This document shows positions 19,150 through 33,827 of a stretch of DNA of 33,945 nt, in pieces (within the stretch, counting starts at the first letter, position 1; each line of letters starts with the position of its first letter). The position numbers and the translations under genes were made by a program. Under the pieces are notes generated by a model. That model saw nothing but the letters and a program-made list of their open reading frames with translations. It did no database searches and was not told the origin of the DNA. The stretch is from Planctomycetota bacterium (GTDB lineage Bacteria; Planctomycetota; SZUA-567): NCBI GenBank assembly GCA_031270685.1, contig JAISXA010000005.1, forward strand, positions 1 to 33,945, given 5' to 3'.

Positions 19150-19731
19150 TCACCCGTCATCCTTGTCGCCGCCGTCTTCGTCGGCATCGTCCGGCAATTC
19201 GTCGAGATTGACCGGACGCCAGTACGGATCATCGACATCTTCGCCAAGAAGCTCGTCCTCTACGTCGAGGCGCACCGCCTCGAACGGATCCGCAACCGCG
19301 GCCGGGCGTTTTATGCCTTGCGCCTGTTTTGATTGGGCGGCGGCGAGGATCGCGGCTTCATCCTCGGGCGGCAACGGCCCGGGGTTGGGGTCGGTTTCGC
19401 GCGCGTCGCGAATCAGCCTCCCGATGCGATCGGCGTTGGCGATGCTGTCGTCAAGCGCGAAATGGAGGTCGGGGGCGGTCTTCAGTCCGAGCGGACTGCC
19501 GATCATGCCCCGAAGCCGCGGGGCGTTGTTCCGGACGATCCGCAACACGCGTTCGCGCTCGGCGTCGTCCCCGAGGACGGAAATGAATATCTTGGCGTGG
19601 CGAAGATCCGGGGAAACCTCGCACTTGGTCACGGTGAGGAACCCGAGACTGGCATGCTTCAGGTTGCGCAACGCATCGACCGATTCCTGAACAATCCGCT
19701 TCGCTACCCGCTCCTGACGCCTGGTGGGCAT
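19150..19731 (-). CDS. rbfA: Ribosome-binding factor A with acidic C-terminal extension
   Basis: A 193-residue ribosome maturation factor that acts on the 30S subunit (16S rRNA 5' end). Residues 1-115 form the family KH-like domain, with the start RRQERVAKRIVQESVDALRNL, the central strand AKIFISVLGDD and LHFALDDSIANADRIGRLI. Typical RbfA ends near 120-130 residues; here another 65 follow, Ala-rich then strongly acidic, ending DEDGGDKDDG. It stands downstream of infB, the usual order, with an 81-base gap, and upstream of the cob genes. Confidence 0.92.
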   Translation of the reverse strand: MPTRRQERVAKRIVQESVDALRNLKHASLGFLTVTKCEVSPDLRHAKIFISVLGDDAERERVLRIVRNNAPRLRGMIGSPLGLKTAPDLHFALDDSIANADRIGRLIRDARETDPNPGPLPPEDEAAILAAAQSKQAQGIKRPAAVADPFEAVRLDVEDELLGEDVDDPYWRPVNLDELPDDADEDGGDKDDG

Positions 19732-19812: not shown

Positions 19813-22797
19813 TTACAACTTGCGGGCGATTTCCTCAATGGCGTAAGCTTCCAAAACGTCGCCGGCCTCGATCGCGTCGTAATTGGCGATCTTGATGCCG
19901 CATTCGAAGCCGGCCTTGACCTCGCGGGCGTCGTCCTTGAGCCGCTTCAGGCTCTGGACGACGCCGTCGTAGATGACCACCTGGTCGCGGTACAGGCGGA
20001 TGCGGCTGGTGCGCTGCACGAATCCGTCCGTGACGTAGCAGCCGGCGATGGCGCCGATCTTCGAGGCCCGGAACACCTGACGGATATCGACATGCCCCTG
20101 CACGACCTCCTTTTCCTCGGGCGGCAGCAATCCTTCGAGAGCGGCGCGCATATCCTCGATCATCCGGTAAATGATGTGATAGGTGCGAATCTGCACGCCG
20201 AGGCTGATGGCGGCGGATTTGGCCTGGTGCTCGATGCCGACGTGGAAACCGAGAATAAGCGCGTCGGAAGCGTCGGCGAGGATGACGTCGGCGTGATTGA
20301 TGCCGCCAACCGCCGAGTGGATGATGTTGATGCCGACTTCCGATGTCGCCAGATCGCGTAACGTCTTGTCCAGCACCTCCAGCGAGCCGACCACGTCGGC
20401 CTTGACGATGACGCTCAACTCGCGCTTGCTTGAACCGGCGAGGTGGCTGGTAAGGTTTTCCAGCGTCACGTGCTGGCGCTTGGCGAGCGCGGCGGAGCGG
20501 GATTCGCGCTCGCGCTGCTCGGCTATCGCCCGCGCCTTCAGGATGTCCTGGAGGATATAGAATTTGTCGCCGGCTTCGGGAACGGCGGAAAGACCGGACA
20601 ACCGCACCGGCGTGCCCGGCCCGGCCTCGTCGATGGGTTTGCCGAACTCGTCCAACATGAAGCGGACCTTGCCGTAGCCGTTGGAACAAAGCATGACGTC
20701 GCCGATGCGCAGCGTGCCGTCGGAGACCAGCATGGTCGAAAGCACGCCCTGGCCCTCCGACATCCGCGCCTCGACGACGAAGCCGGTTGCGGGACGTTCG
20801 GGATTGGCCCGCAGTTCGAGAACCTCCGACTCGAGCAGGATGCGCTCGAGAAGGTCCCCGATTCCCTTGCCGGTGTGCGCCGAAACCTCGATCATGCCGA
20901 CCTGTCCGCCCCATTCCTCGGGGAGCAGGCCGAGGCGATTGGCCAGTTCCTGGCGTACCCGGTCCGGATTGGCGGAAGCCAAATCGCACTTGTTGACGGC
21001 GACGACGATCGGCACCCCCGCGTTTTTGGCGTGCGACGCCGCTTCCTCGGTCTGCGGCATGACGCCGTCGTCCGCGGCGACCACCAGCACGGCGATGTCG
21101 GTCAGGTTCGCGCCGCGCGCGCGCATGGCCGAAAACGCCTCGTGGCCGGGGGTATCCAGGAAGGTGACGCGCTTACCGTCATGGTCGACCGAGTACGCGC
21201 CGATGTGCTGCGTGATGCCGCCGTGTTCGCCGTCGACCACCCGCGTATGGCGGATACGGTCGAGCAGGCTGGTTTTGCCGTGGTCGACGTGACCCATGAA
21301 GGTCACCACCGGCGGCCGCTCGACGACTTCGCCCTCTTCGGCGACATCGGCCTGCTGTCGCGCCTCCTCGGCAAGTTCCTGTTCGAGATCCTCGTCCGAC
21401 TCCCAATCGAGAGGAATCCTGTAATTTTCCGCGATGAGGACTATATCCTCCTCGGAAAGGATGTCGTTGACCTGTATCATCATGCCCTGGCGGAGCAGGA
21501 AGCCGAGAATGTCCTGGAGCTTGACGCCTAGCGCCACGGAAAGATCCCGCAGGGTCATGCCCAGGTACACCTTCGCGGCCTGCCCGGGATCGCGCCGTTG
21601 CGGGCCGGCGATGCGCCGGGTGCGGGAGCGGCGCATGGTGTTGCGCCGGACCGGACGTTTTGAGCGGCGGCGGCCGCCGCCGGTGATGCTGCGGGTGAAA
21701 TCGTTGTCCATCTCCGCGAAGCTCGCCGGAAGCTCGTGCTGGATGCGTTTCGACTTGAAATCCGCGCGCTTGTGCTTGAACGCGACGGGAGCCTCCCCTC
21801 CGCCGGCGGCGAGGAGTTCCGTATTGATCGGCTCCATGGAGCCGCTCGCCGAAGGATCTCCCTGCTCGTTCGAAACGGCGTCCTCATAGACCTCGTCGCC
21901 GAAATCGTCGTCCGCGGTCCAATCCTCGTCGCGTTTGCCCTTCGTTTTCTTGGCCGCCTTGGCCTTTTTCTCCTGCGAATCCTCTTCTATCTTCGCCGCT
22001 CCGCGACCCCTGGTTTTGATCCGCTGCTTCACCCGCGGCTTGCCGGAGGAAAGATCGGTTTCCGGAACGACGGTATCCACGGCCAGAGCGGCCGCGGCGT
22101 TAAAACGTGAACGCGGGCCGGGGCGGGGCGGGGCGGGCCTATCGCCCCGCGCGGGCCTGGCGCCCCCGTCCTGCCTGGGGGCCGGAGCGCCGCCCGAGCG
22201 CGCGGAACGCCTGATCGCGGCAAGCATCTCCGGGGTCGCCTGTCCAACGGCGGCGCTGCCTTTCACGACCGTATTTACGCGCTTCACCGGCTTCGGCGGA
22301 GGCGGCGGCTCGCGTTCAACTTTCGGTTTCGGCTTAAGCCCGGATTTGGGTTCTGATTTCCAGGCTTTGAGCTTGACCGTTTCGGGCGATCCGGGTTCGG
22401 GTTGCGTCGGCGTCGATTCGATTTCGGGGCCAGGTTCGGAAGCGGTCCGTTCCTCGGGCGTCGAAACCGTTTCGGCGACGGGCGACTCGGCATCGACGGG
22501 CTCGGCTTCCCCGGCCGGGGATACGGGCTTTTCCGCTTTTTCGGCGGCGGCGGTTCCGAAGGGGACGATCTTTCCCAGGGGCGATGACTTCACCGCGACG
22601 ACTTTCTTCTTGCGGACGGCCTTCTTTTCCGGCGGCGGCGGGATCCAGCCTGCGGCAGCCTGGTCCGCAACCCAGTCCTCGACATCTTCATTGACGGCAA
22701 CCAGAGTGTTTTTGACGTCAAAACCCTCTTTCTGGACCGCGGTCAGAAGGTCTTGCTGGTTGAAACCGTGTTTTTTCGCCAGTTCGTGAAACCTCAT
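19813..22797 (-). CDS. infB: Translation initiation factor IF-2
   Basis: A 994-residue GTPase that places initiator tRNA on the ribosome. The N-terminal IF2_N motif ([22 protein letters not shown]) is followed by a very long low-complexity linker (about 60-390) rich in Pro, Lys, Arg and Glu, then a second IF2_N-type domain (about 405-460). G1 is GHVDHGKT (502-509), G3 DTPGH (548-552), G4 NKCD (602-605), G5 SAHTGKG. Domains II-IV complete the protein. It lies 112 bases downstream of nusA; the ylxR and L7Ae-like genes commonly found between them are absent. Confidence 0.97.
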
Positions 22798-22909
22798 GTA
22801 CTTTTTTCCCTATCCGGGCGTCGGAGGACGTCATTGTCCCCCGATCCCGTTCGCTTACGGCTCAATACCCGGATCATTCGAACGCGCATCGCTTGCCGGC
22901 TATTCGCGT

Positions 22910-24166
22910 TCATCCGCCTTCGGCATCGGCCACGGCCGCCGCCACTGGTTCGGTTTCACCGGATTTCTTCGATTCCTTGGCCTCCGCAAGCTCCTTGGCA
23001 TCGCCTTCCAACCGTTTGCGGTAACCTTCCACGGCGAAATTGTATATCTCCAGCGCCTTCTTCTCGCCGATGCCCTTGATTTCCATCAGCTTCTCGATGC
23101 CAAGTTCCATGATGTCGTGGAAAGACTCGAATCCGGCGATGAACATGTTGTTGATCATGGTCTCGCCGACTCCGGGCAGCGAAGCGATCTCCTGGCGGCC
23201 CTTTTCGCGCCAGGCCGCGTGCTGGTTGACGGTCATGATGTCGAGATTCCAGCCGGTGAGCCTGGACGAAAGCCGGACGTTCTGCCCCTTGCGGCCGATG
23301 GCAAGGGAAAGCTGGTCGTCGGGTACGATCACCCGCGCCCGCATGTTGCCGCGATCGAACTCGATATGGTCGATTTCCGAAGGCGAGAGCGCATTCCTGA
23401 TGAACAGCTCCGGGACCTCGTTCCAACGGACGATGTCGATCTTTTCGCCGCCTAGCTCCTCGACGATGTTGCGGATGCGGCTGCCGCGGACGCCGACGCA
23501 GGCGCCCACGGCGTCGACGCGGCTGTCTGAACTGGCGACCGCGATTTTTGTACGATAGCCGGGCTCGCGCACCAGTCCCTTGATCTCTACGATATGCTCG
23601 TAAATTTCCGGCACCTCGAGCTCGAACAGCTCGCGGACAAGATCGGGATGGGTGCGGGAAAGAATGATGATGACCTTGTTGCCCTTTTTGCGAACCTGCG
23701 TCACGTAGGCGCGGATGCGTTCATTGGGGCGGTAGTTTTCGGAGGGAATCTGCTCCTGGCGCGGCAGGATGCCGTCCGACTTCCCGATGTTGCAGATCAC
23801 GGTTCCGCGTTCGACGCGTTGGATAACGCCGTTGACGATGGTTCCGACGCGGGCGATGAACTCCTCGTAGACCACGTCCGATTCGGCCTCGCGGATACGC
23901 TGGATCATCACCTGGCGGGCGGTTTGCGCCGCTATGCGGCCGAAGGCGGCCGGGTCCATTTCCTCGAAGGGAATGTCGCCGTCGAGAAGGTGGATCGCTC
24001 CGCTGTTGCGGTCGATCTTGACGCGCAGTTCCTCGACATTGGGGTAATGCTTCCTCGCCGCCGAGACGAGGGCGGTTTCGATGGATTCGATCAGCTGCTC
24101 CCGGTCGATGCCTTTTTCCCGATGCAGGCTGTCGATCTGCCGCAAAAATTCTTCATTGACTTTCAT
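22910..24166 (-). CDS. nusA: Transcription termination/antitermination factor NusA
   Basis: A 418-residue RNA polymerase-binding protein that modulates pausing, termination and antitermination. Order: N-terminal domain (1-105), S1 domain (about 107-172), two KH domains (GVRGSRIRN near 224; SLAIGRKGQNVRL at 287-299), and a helix-hairpin-helix region (about 327-380, PGVGETMINN then IKGIGEKKA). The start MKVNEEF at 24166 follows AAAGGCGG; the upstream in-frame codons are less likely. Upstream lie a terminator and promoter instead of rimP, the usual neighbour. Confidence 0.96.
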   Translation of the reverse strand: MKVNEEFLRQIDSLHREKGIDREQLIESIETALVSAARKHYPNVEELRVKIDRNSGAIHLLDGDIPFEEMDPAAFGRIAAQTARQVMIQRIREAESDVVYEEFIARVGTIVNGVIQRVERGTVICNIGKSDGILPRQEQIPSENYRPNERIRAYVTQVRKKGNKVIIILSRTHPDLVRELFELEVPEIYEHIVEIKGLVREPGYRTKIAVASSDSRVDAVGACVGVRGSRIRNIVEELGGEKIDIVRWNEVPELFIRNALSPSEIDHIEFDRGNMRARVIVPDDQLSLAIGRKGQNVRLSSRLTGWNLDIMTVNQHAAWREKGRQEIASLPGVGETMINNMFIAGFESFHDIMELGIEKLMEIKGIGEKKALEIYNFAVEGYRKRLEGDAKELAEAKESKKSGETEPVAAAVADAEGG

Positions 24167-24246
24167 GGATTCGCCGCCTTTGTTTCCTACCCAAAATTGC
24201 ATTTTTCAATCACGAACGCGGACAACCAATTCTCCGGTTATCCGCC

Positions 24247-24274
24247 AAAAAAAAAGAGCGGGCGCCGCCCGCTC
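24247..24274 (-). terminator. Strong intrinsic terminator just upstream of nusA
   Basis: On the minus strand GAGCGGG/CCCGCTC arms (24274-24268 and 24262-24256) with a five-base loop are followed by nine T (24255-24247). This is the clearest intrinsic terminator in the window. It lies 80 bases before the nusA start in the direction of nusA transcription, so it either ends a separate upstream transcript or works as an attenuator. Confidence 0.85.
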
Positions 24275-24451
24275 CCACATCGACAACGCGAAGCGGGCCG
24301 CGATTGAACGCTCGGCCGGGCCGTTTTCGCGGACATTCGCCCGGCGATATCGGGATTCCTCACGGCGGATACAACGTTCAACCCGCGAAACGCATTACGC
24401 GTCGGGCAGGATGTCCCGGAGAATAGCGCCAATACCCCGCAACCCTCCAGT
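24247..24451 (-). ncRNA. Candidate 205-nt small RNA or nusA attenuator leader
   Basis: Bounded by the promoter at 24458-24486 and the terminator at 24247-24274, this stretch has no convincing reading frame. It can fold: CGCG-GUUGAACG pairs with CGUUCAAU-CGCG, enclosing a perfect GCCGGGC/GCCCGGC stem; a 5' CUGGAG/CUCCGG stem is also possible. It does not show the signature sequences of SRP RNA, 6S RNA, tmRNA or RNase P RNA that I know. It may be a free small RNA or the leader controlling nusA-infB. Confidence 0.4.
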
Positions 24452-24457
24452 GGCGGT

Positions 24458-24486
24458 ATCATCGGCTATTAATCGAATCGTGTCAA
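24458..24486 (-). promoter_or_regulatory. Sigma-70 type promoter upstream of the nusA leader
   Basis: On the minus strand a perfect TTGACA (24486-24481), a 17-base spacer and GATGAT (24463-24458; four of six). Transcription would begin near 24451. It lies about 105 bases beyond the stop of the YkgJ-type gene. Confidence 0.55.
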
Positions 24487-24591
24487 GTAAAATCAAAAGC
24501 GGATTGAAGCGGCAAGGCTTGAACGCATAATGACGGTCCAGCTTCCGGCGCGAGCGGCTACTTTCTTTGAACTGACGGAAATCGCCGGCGG

Positions 24592-25104
24592 TCATTCGAC
24601 GGGAGCGTCGGGGTATTCCTCAATGATTTCCCGGTAAAGCGCCGAGCGCCAGATTTCGGCCTCCTCCCGGTTCATCCCCAAGAGAGCGAGCAACAAGGGA
24701 GCGTTGTCCTGCTCCGGGCGAGGACAAAGATGCGGCGTGATCCCCTTGATGCAGACAGCGTCGTATTCGAAAGGATAAAGCCGGCAGATCAGCGGTCTGG
24801 TCTCCATGTCCAACCGGCAGCCGTCATGGTCGAGGAGCACGCATTCGCCCCCGGGCCGGTGGGCGATGACGCGCAATCCAAGCGGATGGGTGAATATGCG
24901 GTTCCAGACGCGATCGCCTCCCGTCCCGCCGCCGGCGGCGACGGGGACGAATGTATAAAACGGATCGGGGACTTCGCGTTCCCGGATCCGCCGTATATCG
25001 CCAAGGGTCAGGAATACCTCCGTATCGCGGCAACAAGTCAGATCGCCCGCCGCGCACCTGCCGCACAATCCGGGGCCCGACGGCCGGCAATCAGAACCGG
25101 ACAT
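24592..25104 (-). CDS. YkgJ-family cysteine cluster protein
   Basis: A 170-residue cytosolic protein of the CxxC...CC...C cysteine-cluster family (PF03692, YkgJ/zinc- or iron-chelating). Visible cysteines are C14 and C17 (CGRC), the C24-C25 pair, then GGECVLLDHDGC, PLICRLYPF and HLCPRP. The pattern fits metal binding (zinc, iron or an Fe-S cluster); the cellular role of the family is unclear. Its ATG lies within the end of the KamA-like gene (14-base overlap), so translation is probably coupled. Confidence 0.85.
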   Translation of the reverse strand: MSGSDCRPSGPGLCGRCAAGDLTCCRDTEVFLTLGDIRRIREREVPDPFYTFVPVAAGGGTGGDRVWNRIFTHPLGLRVIAHRPGGECVLLDHDGCRLDMETRPLICRLYPFEYDAVCIKGITPHLCPRPEQDNAPLLLALLGMNREEAEIWRSALYREIIEEYPDAPVE

Positions 25105-26374
25105 CGGGGTAATGGTAGGTCCGGAACTCGTAATTGATCAAACTGACGTCCCCGCCATTTGTCATGTGGTAGCGTCCGGGCTGCAACGGCACCTTGCCGC
25201 CGCCGCCGGGCGCATCGATAACGTATTGCGGCACCGCATACCCGGAGATGTGCCCGCGCAACGAGTCCACGATTTCCAGGCCTTTCGATACCGGCGTCCG
25301 GAAGTGGGCGCTCCCAAGTATCGGGTCGCACTGGTACAGGTAATAGGGCCGCACCCGCAACCGCATAAGCCCGGTCATAAGCCGGCGCATGACTTCGGGA
25401 TCGTCGTTGACGCCCTTCAGGAGCACGGTCTGGCTGCCGAGCGGCGCGCCGGCGTCGGCAAGCCGTTCGCACGCTTCCGCCGTCTCCGGCGTAAGTTCGT
25501 CCGGATGAGTGAAATGGAGCGACAGCCATACCGGGTGGTATCGGCGGAGGATCTTGGTGAGCGAGGTGGTGATGCGCATCGGCAGTACGGCGGGCGTCTT
25601 GGTGCCGACGCGGATTACCTCCACATGCGGGATATCGCGAAGCCGCATAAGCAGCCATTCCAAAGCCTCGTCCGGAAGGGTCAGCGGATCGCCGCCGGAA
25701 ATGATGACGTCGCGGACCGTCGGAGTCGCAGCTATGTAGGCGATCGCTTTTTCCCATTGCCCGCGGCAGTAATGGGTCCGCTCGGAACGGCCGACCAGCC
25801 TGGTCCGGGTGCAGTACCGGCAGTAAGCGGAGCAATACTCCGTCGCCATGAAAAGGACGCGGTCGGGATAGCGGTGAATCAACCCGGGGACGGGGCTTTG
25901 GTGATCCTCGCCCAGGGGATCCGCCGCCTCGCCCGGCGAGTGGATGCGTTCGGAACCGACTGGAATCATCGTCCGTCGCAACGCCTGCGAGGGGTCGTCG
26001 CGCGAGAGGAGGGACGCGTAATAGGGGGTTACGGCGACGGGAAGCGCCTCTTCGCCTCCGGACATGGCCGCCATTTCCTCGGGGGAAAGGTTCAATGCCT
26101 TTTCAATTTGCGAAAAGCGCAACGTATTTTGGAGTTGCCAATGCCAGTTGTTCCAATCGGAGCGCGAAACGTTCGCATAATGGTTTTTCCAAAACCGCCT
26201 TGCCATGATTCCTATGGGAAATCGCGTTATCCTCGAAAGAAGATTGTCGCCTTCCCCGCCACCTCCGGATTTAACCGGGTCCGGCCTTTCACAGGTGCGG
26301 CATGCCTGTGAATCTGGAGGCTCATCCCCATTTCCCGAAGCGCCGCCGCCGTCGGAATCCTTGATAATGGACAC
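25091..26374 (-). CDS. kamA: Lysine 2,3-aminomutase family radical SAM enzyme
   Basis: A 427-residue radical SAM and PLP enzyme. The 4Fe-4S motif CSAYCRYC is at 181-188, followed by TRTRLVG. The PLP-binding lysine is in VIDAPGGGGK (about 394). GSQTVLLKGVND, YYLYQCDP and the AHFR region are family-typical. Length and the full C-terminal tail fit KamA/AblA, which turns L-lysine into beta-lysine, rather than the shorter EF-P modifying EpmB, though the EpmB-like role cannot be ruled out. The first 45 residues form a Gly-rich, Cys-containing extension. Start is GTG at 26374 with GAGGAG seven bases before it. Its neighbour upstream is aspartokinase, the first enzyme of lysine synthesis. Confidence 0.87.
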   Translation of the reverse strand: MSIIKDSDGGGASGNGDEPPDSQACRTCERPDPVKSGGGGEGDNLLSRITRFPIGIMARRFWKNHYANVSRSDWNNWHWQLQNTLRFSQIEKALNLSPEEMAAMSGGEEALPVAVTPYYASLLSRDDPSQALRRTMIPVGSERIHSPGEAADPLGEDHQSPVPGLIHRYPDRVLFMATEYCSAYCRYCTRTRLVGRSERTHYCRGQWEKAIAYIAATPTVRDVIISGGDPLTLPDEALEWLLMRLRDIPHVEVIRVGTKTPAVLPMRITTSLTKILRRYHPVWLSLHFTHPDELTPETAEACERLADAGAPLGSQTVLLKGVNDDPEVMRRLMTGLMRLRVRPYYLYQCDPILGSAHFRTPVSKGLEIVDSLRGHISGYAVPQYVIDAPGGGGKVPLQPGRYHMTNGGDVSLINYEFRTYHYPDVRF

Positions 26375-26449
26375 AATTACGCTCCTCGCTCTCTCTCCCC
26401 CTCCGGTAACGACAAATTACACCAGTTCAATGTCGGTAACGGAGGCGTT

Positions 26450-27793
26450 TTATTCGAACATTTCCTTATGCAACTCCCGAACCGCCCTCTTAACCTGGTT
26501 TTCCCGAACCAGGAGGGCGATGTTTATCTCTGTCGCGCCCTGGCTGATCATCCGAATGCTGACGCCGCTTCTTGCCATCGCACCGGTCACCCGCGCGGCG
26601 ACGCCGGGAGTGCCTTTCATTTTCTCGCCGACGACAGAAATGAGGGACATGTCGCGATCGACCGCGACGTCCGCGAACTCCTTGATCTGTTCGGCCGCCT
26701 TTTCGACATGCTGCCCCTTCGGAGTGGTGACGCTTATGCTCACCTCCGAAGTGGCGATCATGTGGATGTCCACCCCGTTCCGGTTGAACACGTCGAAAAC
26801 CTTGGACATGAACCCATGGGCGCCGAACATCCGGCCGGTGGTGATGGTGATCAATTGCACGCCGTTCAGCACGGCCACGGATTTGGCAACCGGGGATCCC
26901 GCCGCTTCGACGACGCTTCGGCGAATGACCGTTCCCGGATGACCGGGATCGGAGGTGTTCTTGACCCGCACCGGGATGTCGTTTTCCATGGCCGGTATCA
27001 TGGTGGCGGGGTGCAAAACCTTCGCCCCGTACCAGGCGAGTTCCGAAGCCTCCATGAAAGTGAGTTCGGGGATGCTCCGCGCCCCGTCGACGATGCGGGG
27101 ATCGGTGGTCATGACGCCGGAAACGTCGGTCCAGATCTGCACTTCCTCCGATCCGGTGATCGCGCCGAAAATGGTGCCCGAATAATCGGACCCGCCCCGG
27201 CCCAGGGTGGTGATTTGCCCGTCGTCGGTGGCCGCGATGAACCCGGTTGTCACCAGGACGTCCGGATTCAAGTCCTCGATCTGCTTCGCCACCGCCGGGA
27301 AGCTGCGTGGATCGGGATGCGCTGCGCCGAAATTGGCGTCGGTGCGAAGTCCAAGGGAGACGGAAGAGCGATAAATCGAGTCAACCCCGAACTCCCGTCG
27401 AAGGACGTCGTTGACCACTCGGCCCGACATGCGCTCGCCGAAGCTCATTACCACATCCATGGTTCTCGGGGTCAGTTCACCGATCATGGCAATGCCCTTG
27501 ATCAACTGATCGAACCGCTCGAGAAGCCGCTCTATGCCAACCGCCTCGGCGTCGACGCCGAGATCGCGGCAAATGCCCCGTTGCGCCTCCTGGACCTTGG
27601 TGGTGTCGGCCTTGCCCTCCCTCGCCGCCCTGGCGGTGGCGACCAGGGCGTCTGTCATATGAACGGACGGCGAATTGTGCGCGGAAACGACGACAATCGG
27701 TTTCCGGGTCAGTTCGCTCTTGACTATTTGGCACACTTGACGTATCCGCTCGGCGTTTCCGACGCTGGTGCCCCCGAATTTCAAGGTGATCAT
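26450..27793 (-). CDS. lysC: Aspartate kinase
   Basis: A 447-residue monofunctional aspartokinase that phosphorylates aspartate, opening the pathway to lysine, threonine, methionine and diaminopimelate. The N-terminus KFGGTSVG is diagnostic; the kinase core includes GFIAATDDGQITTLGRGGSDY and WTDVSGVMTTDPR. Two C-terminal ACT domains (GVDIHMIATSEVSISV and GVSIRMISQGATEINIALLV) would bind the feedback amino acid. The ATG follows GGAAAGG at 11 bases. It is followed after 75 bases by the KamA-like gene. Confidence 0.95.
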   Translation of the reverse strand: MITLKFGGTSVGNAERIRQVCQIVKSELTRKPIVVVSAHNSPSVHMTDALVATARAAREGKADTTKVQEAQRGICRDLGVDAEAVGIERLLERFDQLIKGIAMIGELTPRTMDVVMSFGERMSGRVVNDVLRREFGVDSIYRSSVSLGLRTDANFGAAHPDPRSFPAVAKQIEDLNPDVLVTTGFIAATDDGQITTLGRGGSDYSGTIFGAITGSEEVQIWTDVSGVMTTDPRIVDGARSIPELTFMEASELAWYGAKVLHPATMIPAMENDIPVRVKNTSDPGHPGTVIRRSVVEAAGSPVAKSVAVLNGVQLITITTGRMFGAHGFMSKVFDVFNRNGVDIHMIATSEVSISVTTPKGQHVEKAAEQIKEFADVAVDRDMSLISVVGEKMKGTPGVAARVTGAMARSGVSIRMISQGATEINIALLVRENQVKRAVRELHKEMFE

Positions 27794-27842
27794 GTTCGTT
27801 GACGCCTTTCCATTGCGCCGTTTCGGCGGATATTTCAATATA

Positions 27843-27863
27843 CGGGCGGGGGTTCCCCGCCCG
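27843..27863. other. Very GC-rich hairpin in the lysC leader
   Basis: CGGGCGGGG (27843-27851) pairs perfectly with CCCCGCCCG (27855-27863) around a three-base loop. It lies about 50 bases upstream of the lysC start. No T-run follows on either strand. It could slow ribosome loading or be part of a leader switch. Confidence 0.55.
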
Positions 27864-27962
27864 GACCCGGCTCCGCGCCTTGGTTGATCCGCAATACATT
27901 TGTTGGGATATACAAAAGCGCGGCTTCCGATGCAAATGGAAAAGCGGAGCACACAAAAAAAG

Positions 27963-27990
27963 TTGACTTCCGCCCCGGCCGGCATACCAT
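27963..27990 (+). promoter_or_regulatory. Possible sigma-70 promoter for scpB-sigma operon
   Basis: TTGACT (27963-27968) is followed after 16 bases by TACCAT (27985-27990). Five and four of six bases match consensus. A start near 27998 would give a leader of about 130 bases before scpB. Confidence 0.35.
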
Positions 27991-28127
27991 GGCAATACCG
28001 TTTGAAAGCCTTTTTCCGGCCTTTCGCCGCACGGCGAAGGGCTGGTTCGAGGTGTTTCATAGCCATGACAAATCAGCGGATCCGGCGCTTTTCGCCGCCC
28101 GTTTTTCCGAGGCCATGTTGATTGCCC

Positions 28128-33744: not shown

Positions 33745-33767
33745 AAGCGGGCGCGAGCGCGCTTGTC
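33742..33767. other. Hairpin with GCGA tetraloop
   Basis: GACAAGCG (33742-33749) pairs with CGCTTGTC (33760-33767); after one G-G mismatch, GC/GC closes a GCGA (GNRA) loop. No T-run follows. It adjoins the palindromic boxes upstream of flaG. Confidence 0.5.
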
Positions 33768-33827
33768 CCCGTCCGGCCGCGCCCCTTTTTTTGCCACCTC
33801 ACGCGCTTTATGACTGTTATCGGATAA

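Follow-up and report, generated by a model that had tools for sequence, protein, structure and literature searches.

The rimP-leader, which precedes rimP-nusA-infB operons, is a predicted attenuator that Naville and Gautheret described in 2010 as the most ubiquitous in bacteria (PMC2965389). Its terminator stem has the form GGGc...gCCC, no antiterminator is visible in its general form and the T run is located 4-130 nt from the first gene (PMC2965389). The effector was argued to be either NusA or RimP, with NusA as the best candidate (PMC2965389). In B. subtilis, NusA is autoregulated through NusA-stimulated termination in its own leader (Mondal et al. 2016, as reviewed in PMC12288461). An effect of NusA on its own operon is described for E. 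coli as well (PMC6511841; PMC2965389), and reading of the sequence places GGGCTTTAGGCCC-T7 directly before rimP. The closing of the foot of a terminator stem has been described as rate-limiting (PMC8060035).

The window, that is, the whole stretch of 33,945 nt analysed here, belongs to a 3.18-Mb draft genome whose nearest relatives by NusA are Planctomycetota metagenome genomes. The region upstream of its nusA gene is probably a 5' leader attenuator of the nusA-infB-rbfA operon, with NusA most likely raising termination (Table 1).

Promoter, terminator and fold of the nusA leader

Profile searches recovered the gene order nusA-infB-rbfA-cob proposed in the initial annotation, cob being a CobC-like alpha-ribazole phosphatase encoded downstream of rbfA. 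The nusA frame contains two in-frame ATG codons on the minus strand, at 24202 and 24166, the former of which is likely a misleading start; the start was placed at 24166 because relatives align from there. The gene upstream of the leader (24592-25104) lies on the same strand as nusA in the window.

The leader promoter consists of TTGACA (24486-24481), a 17-nt spacer and GATGAT (24463-24458) on the minus strand. It was the top-scoring site in a promoter scan of positions 20000-28000, its 10/12 score was reached by none of 40 shuffles of the surrounding 300 nt and its TTGACA box is invariant across nine aligned relatives (alignment A1). This promoter had already been recognised in the initial annotation, as had an RNA of ~205 nt, a length that agrees with the distance from 24451 to 24247 (205 nt) if transcription starts ~7 nt past the -10 box.

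The same annotation had also called a GC-rich stem followed by nine T, which turned out to be the strongest of 11 terminators found in 8 kb. In DNA, the terminator reads GGGAGCGGGC-GGC-GCCCGCTCTT, with 10 pairs (stem 24276-24254, nine T at 24255-24247); its core GGGC-GGC-GCCC (24270-24260) is followed by GCUC and nine U, and its end is separated from the nusA ATG at 24166 by 80 nt. The 34-kb window has one other hairpin with a comparable T run, at 33786 on the plus strand, a strong terminator-like structure with seven T near the end of the window (33750-33795). With its unbroken T run and strong stem, the leader terminator resembles the NusA-dependent terminators of B. subtilis less than does the UUUAUUUUUU of the sister genus, and both features count against the attenuator reading. 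An Rfam search, the check proposed in the initial annotation, gave no relevant match to the leader at curated or permissive thresholds.

Table 1. Coordinates of the nusA operon and of the elements of its leader
Feature	Position	Strand	Basis
nusA	22910..24166	-	NCBIfam TIGR01953, E 6e-110; start placed by relatives
infB (IF-2), second gene of the operon	19813..22797	-	NCBIfam TIGR00487
rbfA	19150..19731	-	NCBIfam TIGR00082
Sigma-70-type promoter TTGACA-17-GATGAT of the nusA operon leader	24458..24486	-	10/12 matches to consensus
Predicted terminated leader RNA, ~205 nt	24247..24451	-	Positions of promoter and terminator; start inferred ~7 nt past the -10 box
P1 hairpin (CUGGAGGGU...AUUCUCCGG)	24416..24450	-	RNAfold of leaders
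UCCUGC, 5' strand of the lower P2 stem, candidate antiterminator	24406..24411	-	Possible pairing with GUGGGA 24278-24273
P2 upper stem and long rod (~120 nt)	24284..24404	-	Alignment A1; this genus only
GUGGGA, used by both the lower P2 stem and the terminator stem foot	24273..24278	-	Folding models
Intrinsic terminator GGGAGCGGGC-GGC-GCCCGCUCUU and nine U	24247..24276	-	Single AGCGGG-N4-7-CCCGCT-TTT copy in the genome
Hairpin past the terminator (GCGGAUAACCG...UGGUUGUCCGC), read-through 5' UTR	24218..24245	-	11 pairs; similar hairpin at the same place in the sister species

The initial annotation had suggested a folded RNA. As a single sequence, the leader folds with a stability barely above that of shuffled sequences (z -1.15; 28 of 200 shuffles equal it), so the suggestion rests on comparison with relatives rather than on energy. 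A hairpin recurs at the position of P1 in RNAfold predictions, even though its sequence varies between genera; the body between promoter and terminator differs. Where this genus has the long rod, the sister genus has a short hairpin, and one pair of the upper P2 stem changes from U-A to C-G between the two genera. Counts of pairs from a comparison of this genus's two species are biased towards the structure, since these species served to derive it.

The P2 and terminator structures have the foot of the terminator stem in common. Pairing between UCCUGC and GUGGGA is possible in 9/9 relatives, with one wobble change. In folds of leaders truncated after the terminator's 5' arm, mean pairing between the UCCUGC segment and this arm was 0.14 for the window sequence and ranged from 0.29 to 0.84 among the other eight leaders. 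In complete leaders the terminator prevails (0.91-1.00), a predicted dominance that would weigh against the attenuator reading. A covariation test of the pairing found one pair changed on both sides, which 225 of 500 shuffles also reach; covariation lends little support here because the pairing is nearly invariant. The folding models are therefore compatible with an antiterminator role of UCCUGC:GUGGGA rather than proof of it.

Conservation of the leader and probable loss of rimP

In the family set (16 genomes, G000-G015), TTGAC[A/T] with a -10-like box and a terminator were found upstream of nusA in 16/16 genomes, including those in which the preceding gene is an unrelated or a divergent one, although four of them (G005, G006, G007 and G010) have promoter matches whose scores shuffled sequences often equal. 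In G003, a contig break separates the leader from nusA, the two lying at the ends of two contigs, and the gene preceding the leader is the one found there in G013 as well. The leader is retained in full by the sister species, at 79% identity. The seven genomes of the sister genus g3 have a leader of ~90-105 nt that comprises, in order, the TTGACA promoter, a variable P1, a fixed CUGCCCGAUA, a short P2, GAUGUGGGAGCGGGC-NNN-GCCCGCUC and a U run. Other genera of the family keep the promoter and terminator around unlike sequence, with leaders down to 63 nt. A covariance model built from g3 (R1) had hits in 11 of 29 genomes of the class, all of them at the nusA locus, and in every relative where the element was found it is single-copy and directly upstream of nusA.

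The stem sequence AGCGGG...CCCGCT-TTT is present in 10/16 family genomes and occurs at nusA only in eight of these. G004 has it at nusA and at one more site, and G012 has it elsewhere only, its nusA copy deviating just past the stem. The bare pattern GGGC-N3-5-GCCC-T6 occurs some five times at distinct places of the window genome, approximately as many as the reversed control, and is therefore not diagnostic in this GC-rich genome. In G006 and G010, GGGC-N3-5-GCCC with a T run, mostly as GGGCTAAAGCCC, gave 90 and 108 matches versus 2 and 8 in reverse, counts that are inflated by overlapping matches; these hairpins (e.g. G010:C1:87632-87654) resemble a dispersed repeat or a standardised terminator. 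The candidate identity of TGTGGGAGCGGG as a repeat or REP element was rejected: the window genome has one copy, and the other copies in relatives are without the leader flanks or the 3' arm of the terminator and resemble coding sequence by eye. In G009 and G015, an unusually long and strongly folding stretch of 261 nt lies between the terminator and nusA.

Outside the family, we scanned 300 nt upstream of nusA in 84 genomes of the phylum. A sense terminator was found in 53/84 stretches, against 7/84 in antisense and ~9 expected from shuffles (first-order chain, three per sequence). The remaining 31/84 were without a terminator by the criteria used, including G016, for which a short contig flank led to the wrong stretch. 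Stems of the form GYGGG...CCCRC with a T run numbered 30/84, compared with 3 in antisense and 0.24 expected. Pairs 1-3 and 5 of this stem were fixed by the search pattern and hence carry no evidence of conservation; pair 4 from the loop, which was partly free, is U-A in 17, U-G in five, C-G in six and C-A in none across families, and its variation is evidently compensated change. The window stem, GAGCGGG...CCCGCTC, is the phylum stem with U-A replaced by C-G.

Whole-genome searches of 14 of these phylum genomes, of 2.9-12.3 Mb, showed that GTGGG...CCCAC-TTTT is nearly confined to nusA, with exactly one match in eight of them, in genomes of up to 12.3 Mb. This near-uniqueness stands in for a control set of the upstream regions of other genes. 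The conserved layout of promoter, leader, terminator and nusA is evidently not due to chance, and the signature suggests that the sequence of the stem matters and not only its strength.

RimP_N (PF02576) was detected in none of the 16 family genomes. It was found in 6/60 relatives, always on contigs other than that of nusA, and in 10/14 control genomes. A gap in all 16 family genomes is unlikely, although many of the genomes examined are drafts. The non-detection in the family and in most of the 60 relatives suggests loss of rimP in much of Planctomycetota. Because rimP is undetected yet the stop signal persists, the sequences appear to be pointing to NusA rather than RimP as the controller. 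It is this combination, a terminator signature nearly unique to nusA with rimP rare and never on the nusA contig, that separates the two effector candidates; with the signature retained, the signal goes with nusA. In a text search of the available literature, we found no paper naming Planctomycetota together with rimP and nusA. For this phylum, the leader marks a probable regulatory RNA at a central operon.

Proposed mechanism and alternative explanations

The cell most likely sets the amount of NusA through the stop signal in the leader. RNA polymerase would start near 24451, make P1 and P2 and reach the terminator 80 nt before nusA, where a share of the transcripts would stop as the ~205-nt RNA and the remainder would continue into nusA. 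NusA would most likely increase termination at this point, in a negative feedback as reported for B. subtilis. Before the 3' arm is synthesised, the lower P2 stem could occupy the foot of the terminator stem, perhaps slowing completion of that stem, which would give NusA something to act on. Transcription and termination at the leader are what we infer from its anatomy, and NusA is taken as the effector because of precedent in B. subtilis (PMC12288461) and E. coli (PMC6511841 and PMC2965389). We further propose, tentatively, that the terminator stem might be a sequence-specific recognition site for NusA that is phylum-wide and has outlived the loss of rimP, while the competing stem and the rod tune it in this genus.

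Alternatively, the attenuator could respond to an effector other than NusA, which might be IF-2, some ribosomal or assembly factor, or else a small molecule with P1/P2 as its sensor. The nearly invariant UCCUGCCC segment of P2 could be a binding site, and infB and rbfA are encoded in the same operon. However, P1/P2 and the fixed segment are restricted to two genera, in contrast to the phylum-wide terminator signature; conservation would be expected of a sensor above all, which disfavours this role for P1/P2. RimP itself is an unlikely effector in the family, where RimP_N was undetected. We consider an effector of this kind rather improbable.

The initial annotation left open whether the element was an unclassified small RNA or an attenuator of nusA. 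As a free-standing ~205-nt RNA acting in trans, with nusA expressed from another promoter, the element would explain why a promoter and a terminator frame a discrete unit, and the genus-specific rod could provide a stable body. Nevertheless, the element is always beside nusA and never elsewhere (covariance model R1), its ends are conserved while the body is not, ranging from 63 to 205 nt with differing hairpins across the family, and in the 15 family genomes read, no consensus (TTGACA-type) promoter was seen after the terminator and ahead of nusA. A small RNA of this type is thus disfavoured, and we regard it as quite unlikely. Attenuation is the alternative favoured by the single-copy location at nusA, the nusA-confined signature, the lack of an intervening promoter in those 15 genomes and the precedents (PMC2965389; PMC12288461). 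Self-attenuation of nusA, as first suggested, was the right idea, yet the principle is already known.

It is very doubtful that the terminator merely ends or insulates the upstream gene without regulating nusA. In the window, that gene does share the strand of nusA, but the upstream gene is divergent in G004 (CysRS), G007 (amidase) and G012 (periplasmic binding protein), which rules it out as the owner of the terminator there; a conserved promoter also separates the upstream gene from the terminator, and the stem signature is almost specific to nusA. That the leader is 6S RNA or another housekeeping RNA missed by curated models is barely credible: the length is similar, but the 6S model (RF00013) matches elsewhere in the window genome (G000:C174:2710-2893, another contig; 59 bits, above the curated cut-off) and not at the leader, which refutes that identity, and no such Rfam family matches the leader even at E 10.

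Comparison with described leaders

The preferred reading, an attenuator of nusA, places the window element close to the rimP-leader. It lies in the 5' UTR heading a nusA-infB operon, and its stem carries a run of G in the 5' arm and one of C in the 3' arm, with U after it, in agreement with GGGc...gCCC. The distance from the end of its T run to the first gene, 80 nt, falls within the reported 4-130 nt, and its stem signature is hardly shared with other terminators of the genome, the specificity described for the rimP-leader. Unlike in the rimP-leader, the first gene of the operon is not rimP, which is missing from it. The stem also has extra fixed bases (GUGGG/CCCAC in the phylum, GAGCGGG/CCCGCUC in the window), and P1, P2 and the rod are present in addition to the general form.

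The E. coli rimP leader (Rfam RF01770) has in GGGCTTTAGGCCC-T7 a terminator with a counterpart in the window, which in turn is without the metY tRNA gene or tandem terminators of E. coli. The RF01770 covariance model gave no match in 21 genomes (the window genome and 20 relatives); among 14 control genomes it matched E. coli only. The B. subtilis system (PMC12288461) resembles the window in having a terminator in the leader of the operon that encodes NusA, with negative feedback expected. It differs in that rimP (ylxS) is the first gene there, and in that its effect was tested, whereas feedback in the window is predicted from anatomy.

What is new here is that the terminator persists although rimP was detected neither in the family nor near nusA in 60 relatives, and the addition of P1, the competing P2 stem and the ~120-nt rod. 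The window element is thus most likely a cis-acting attenuator of the rimP-leader kind, in a variant without rimP, and not a free small RNA.
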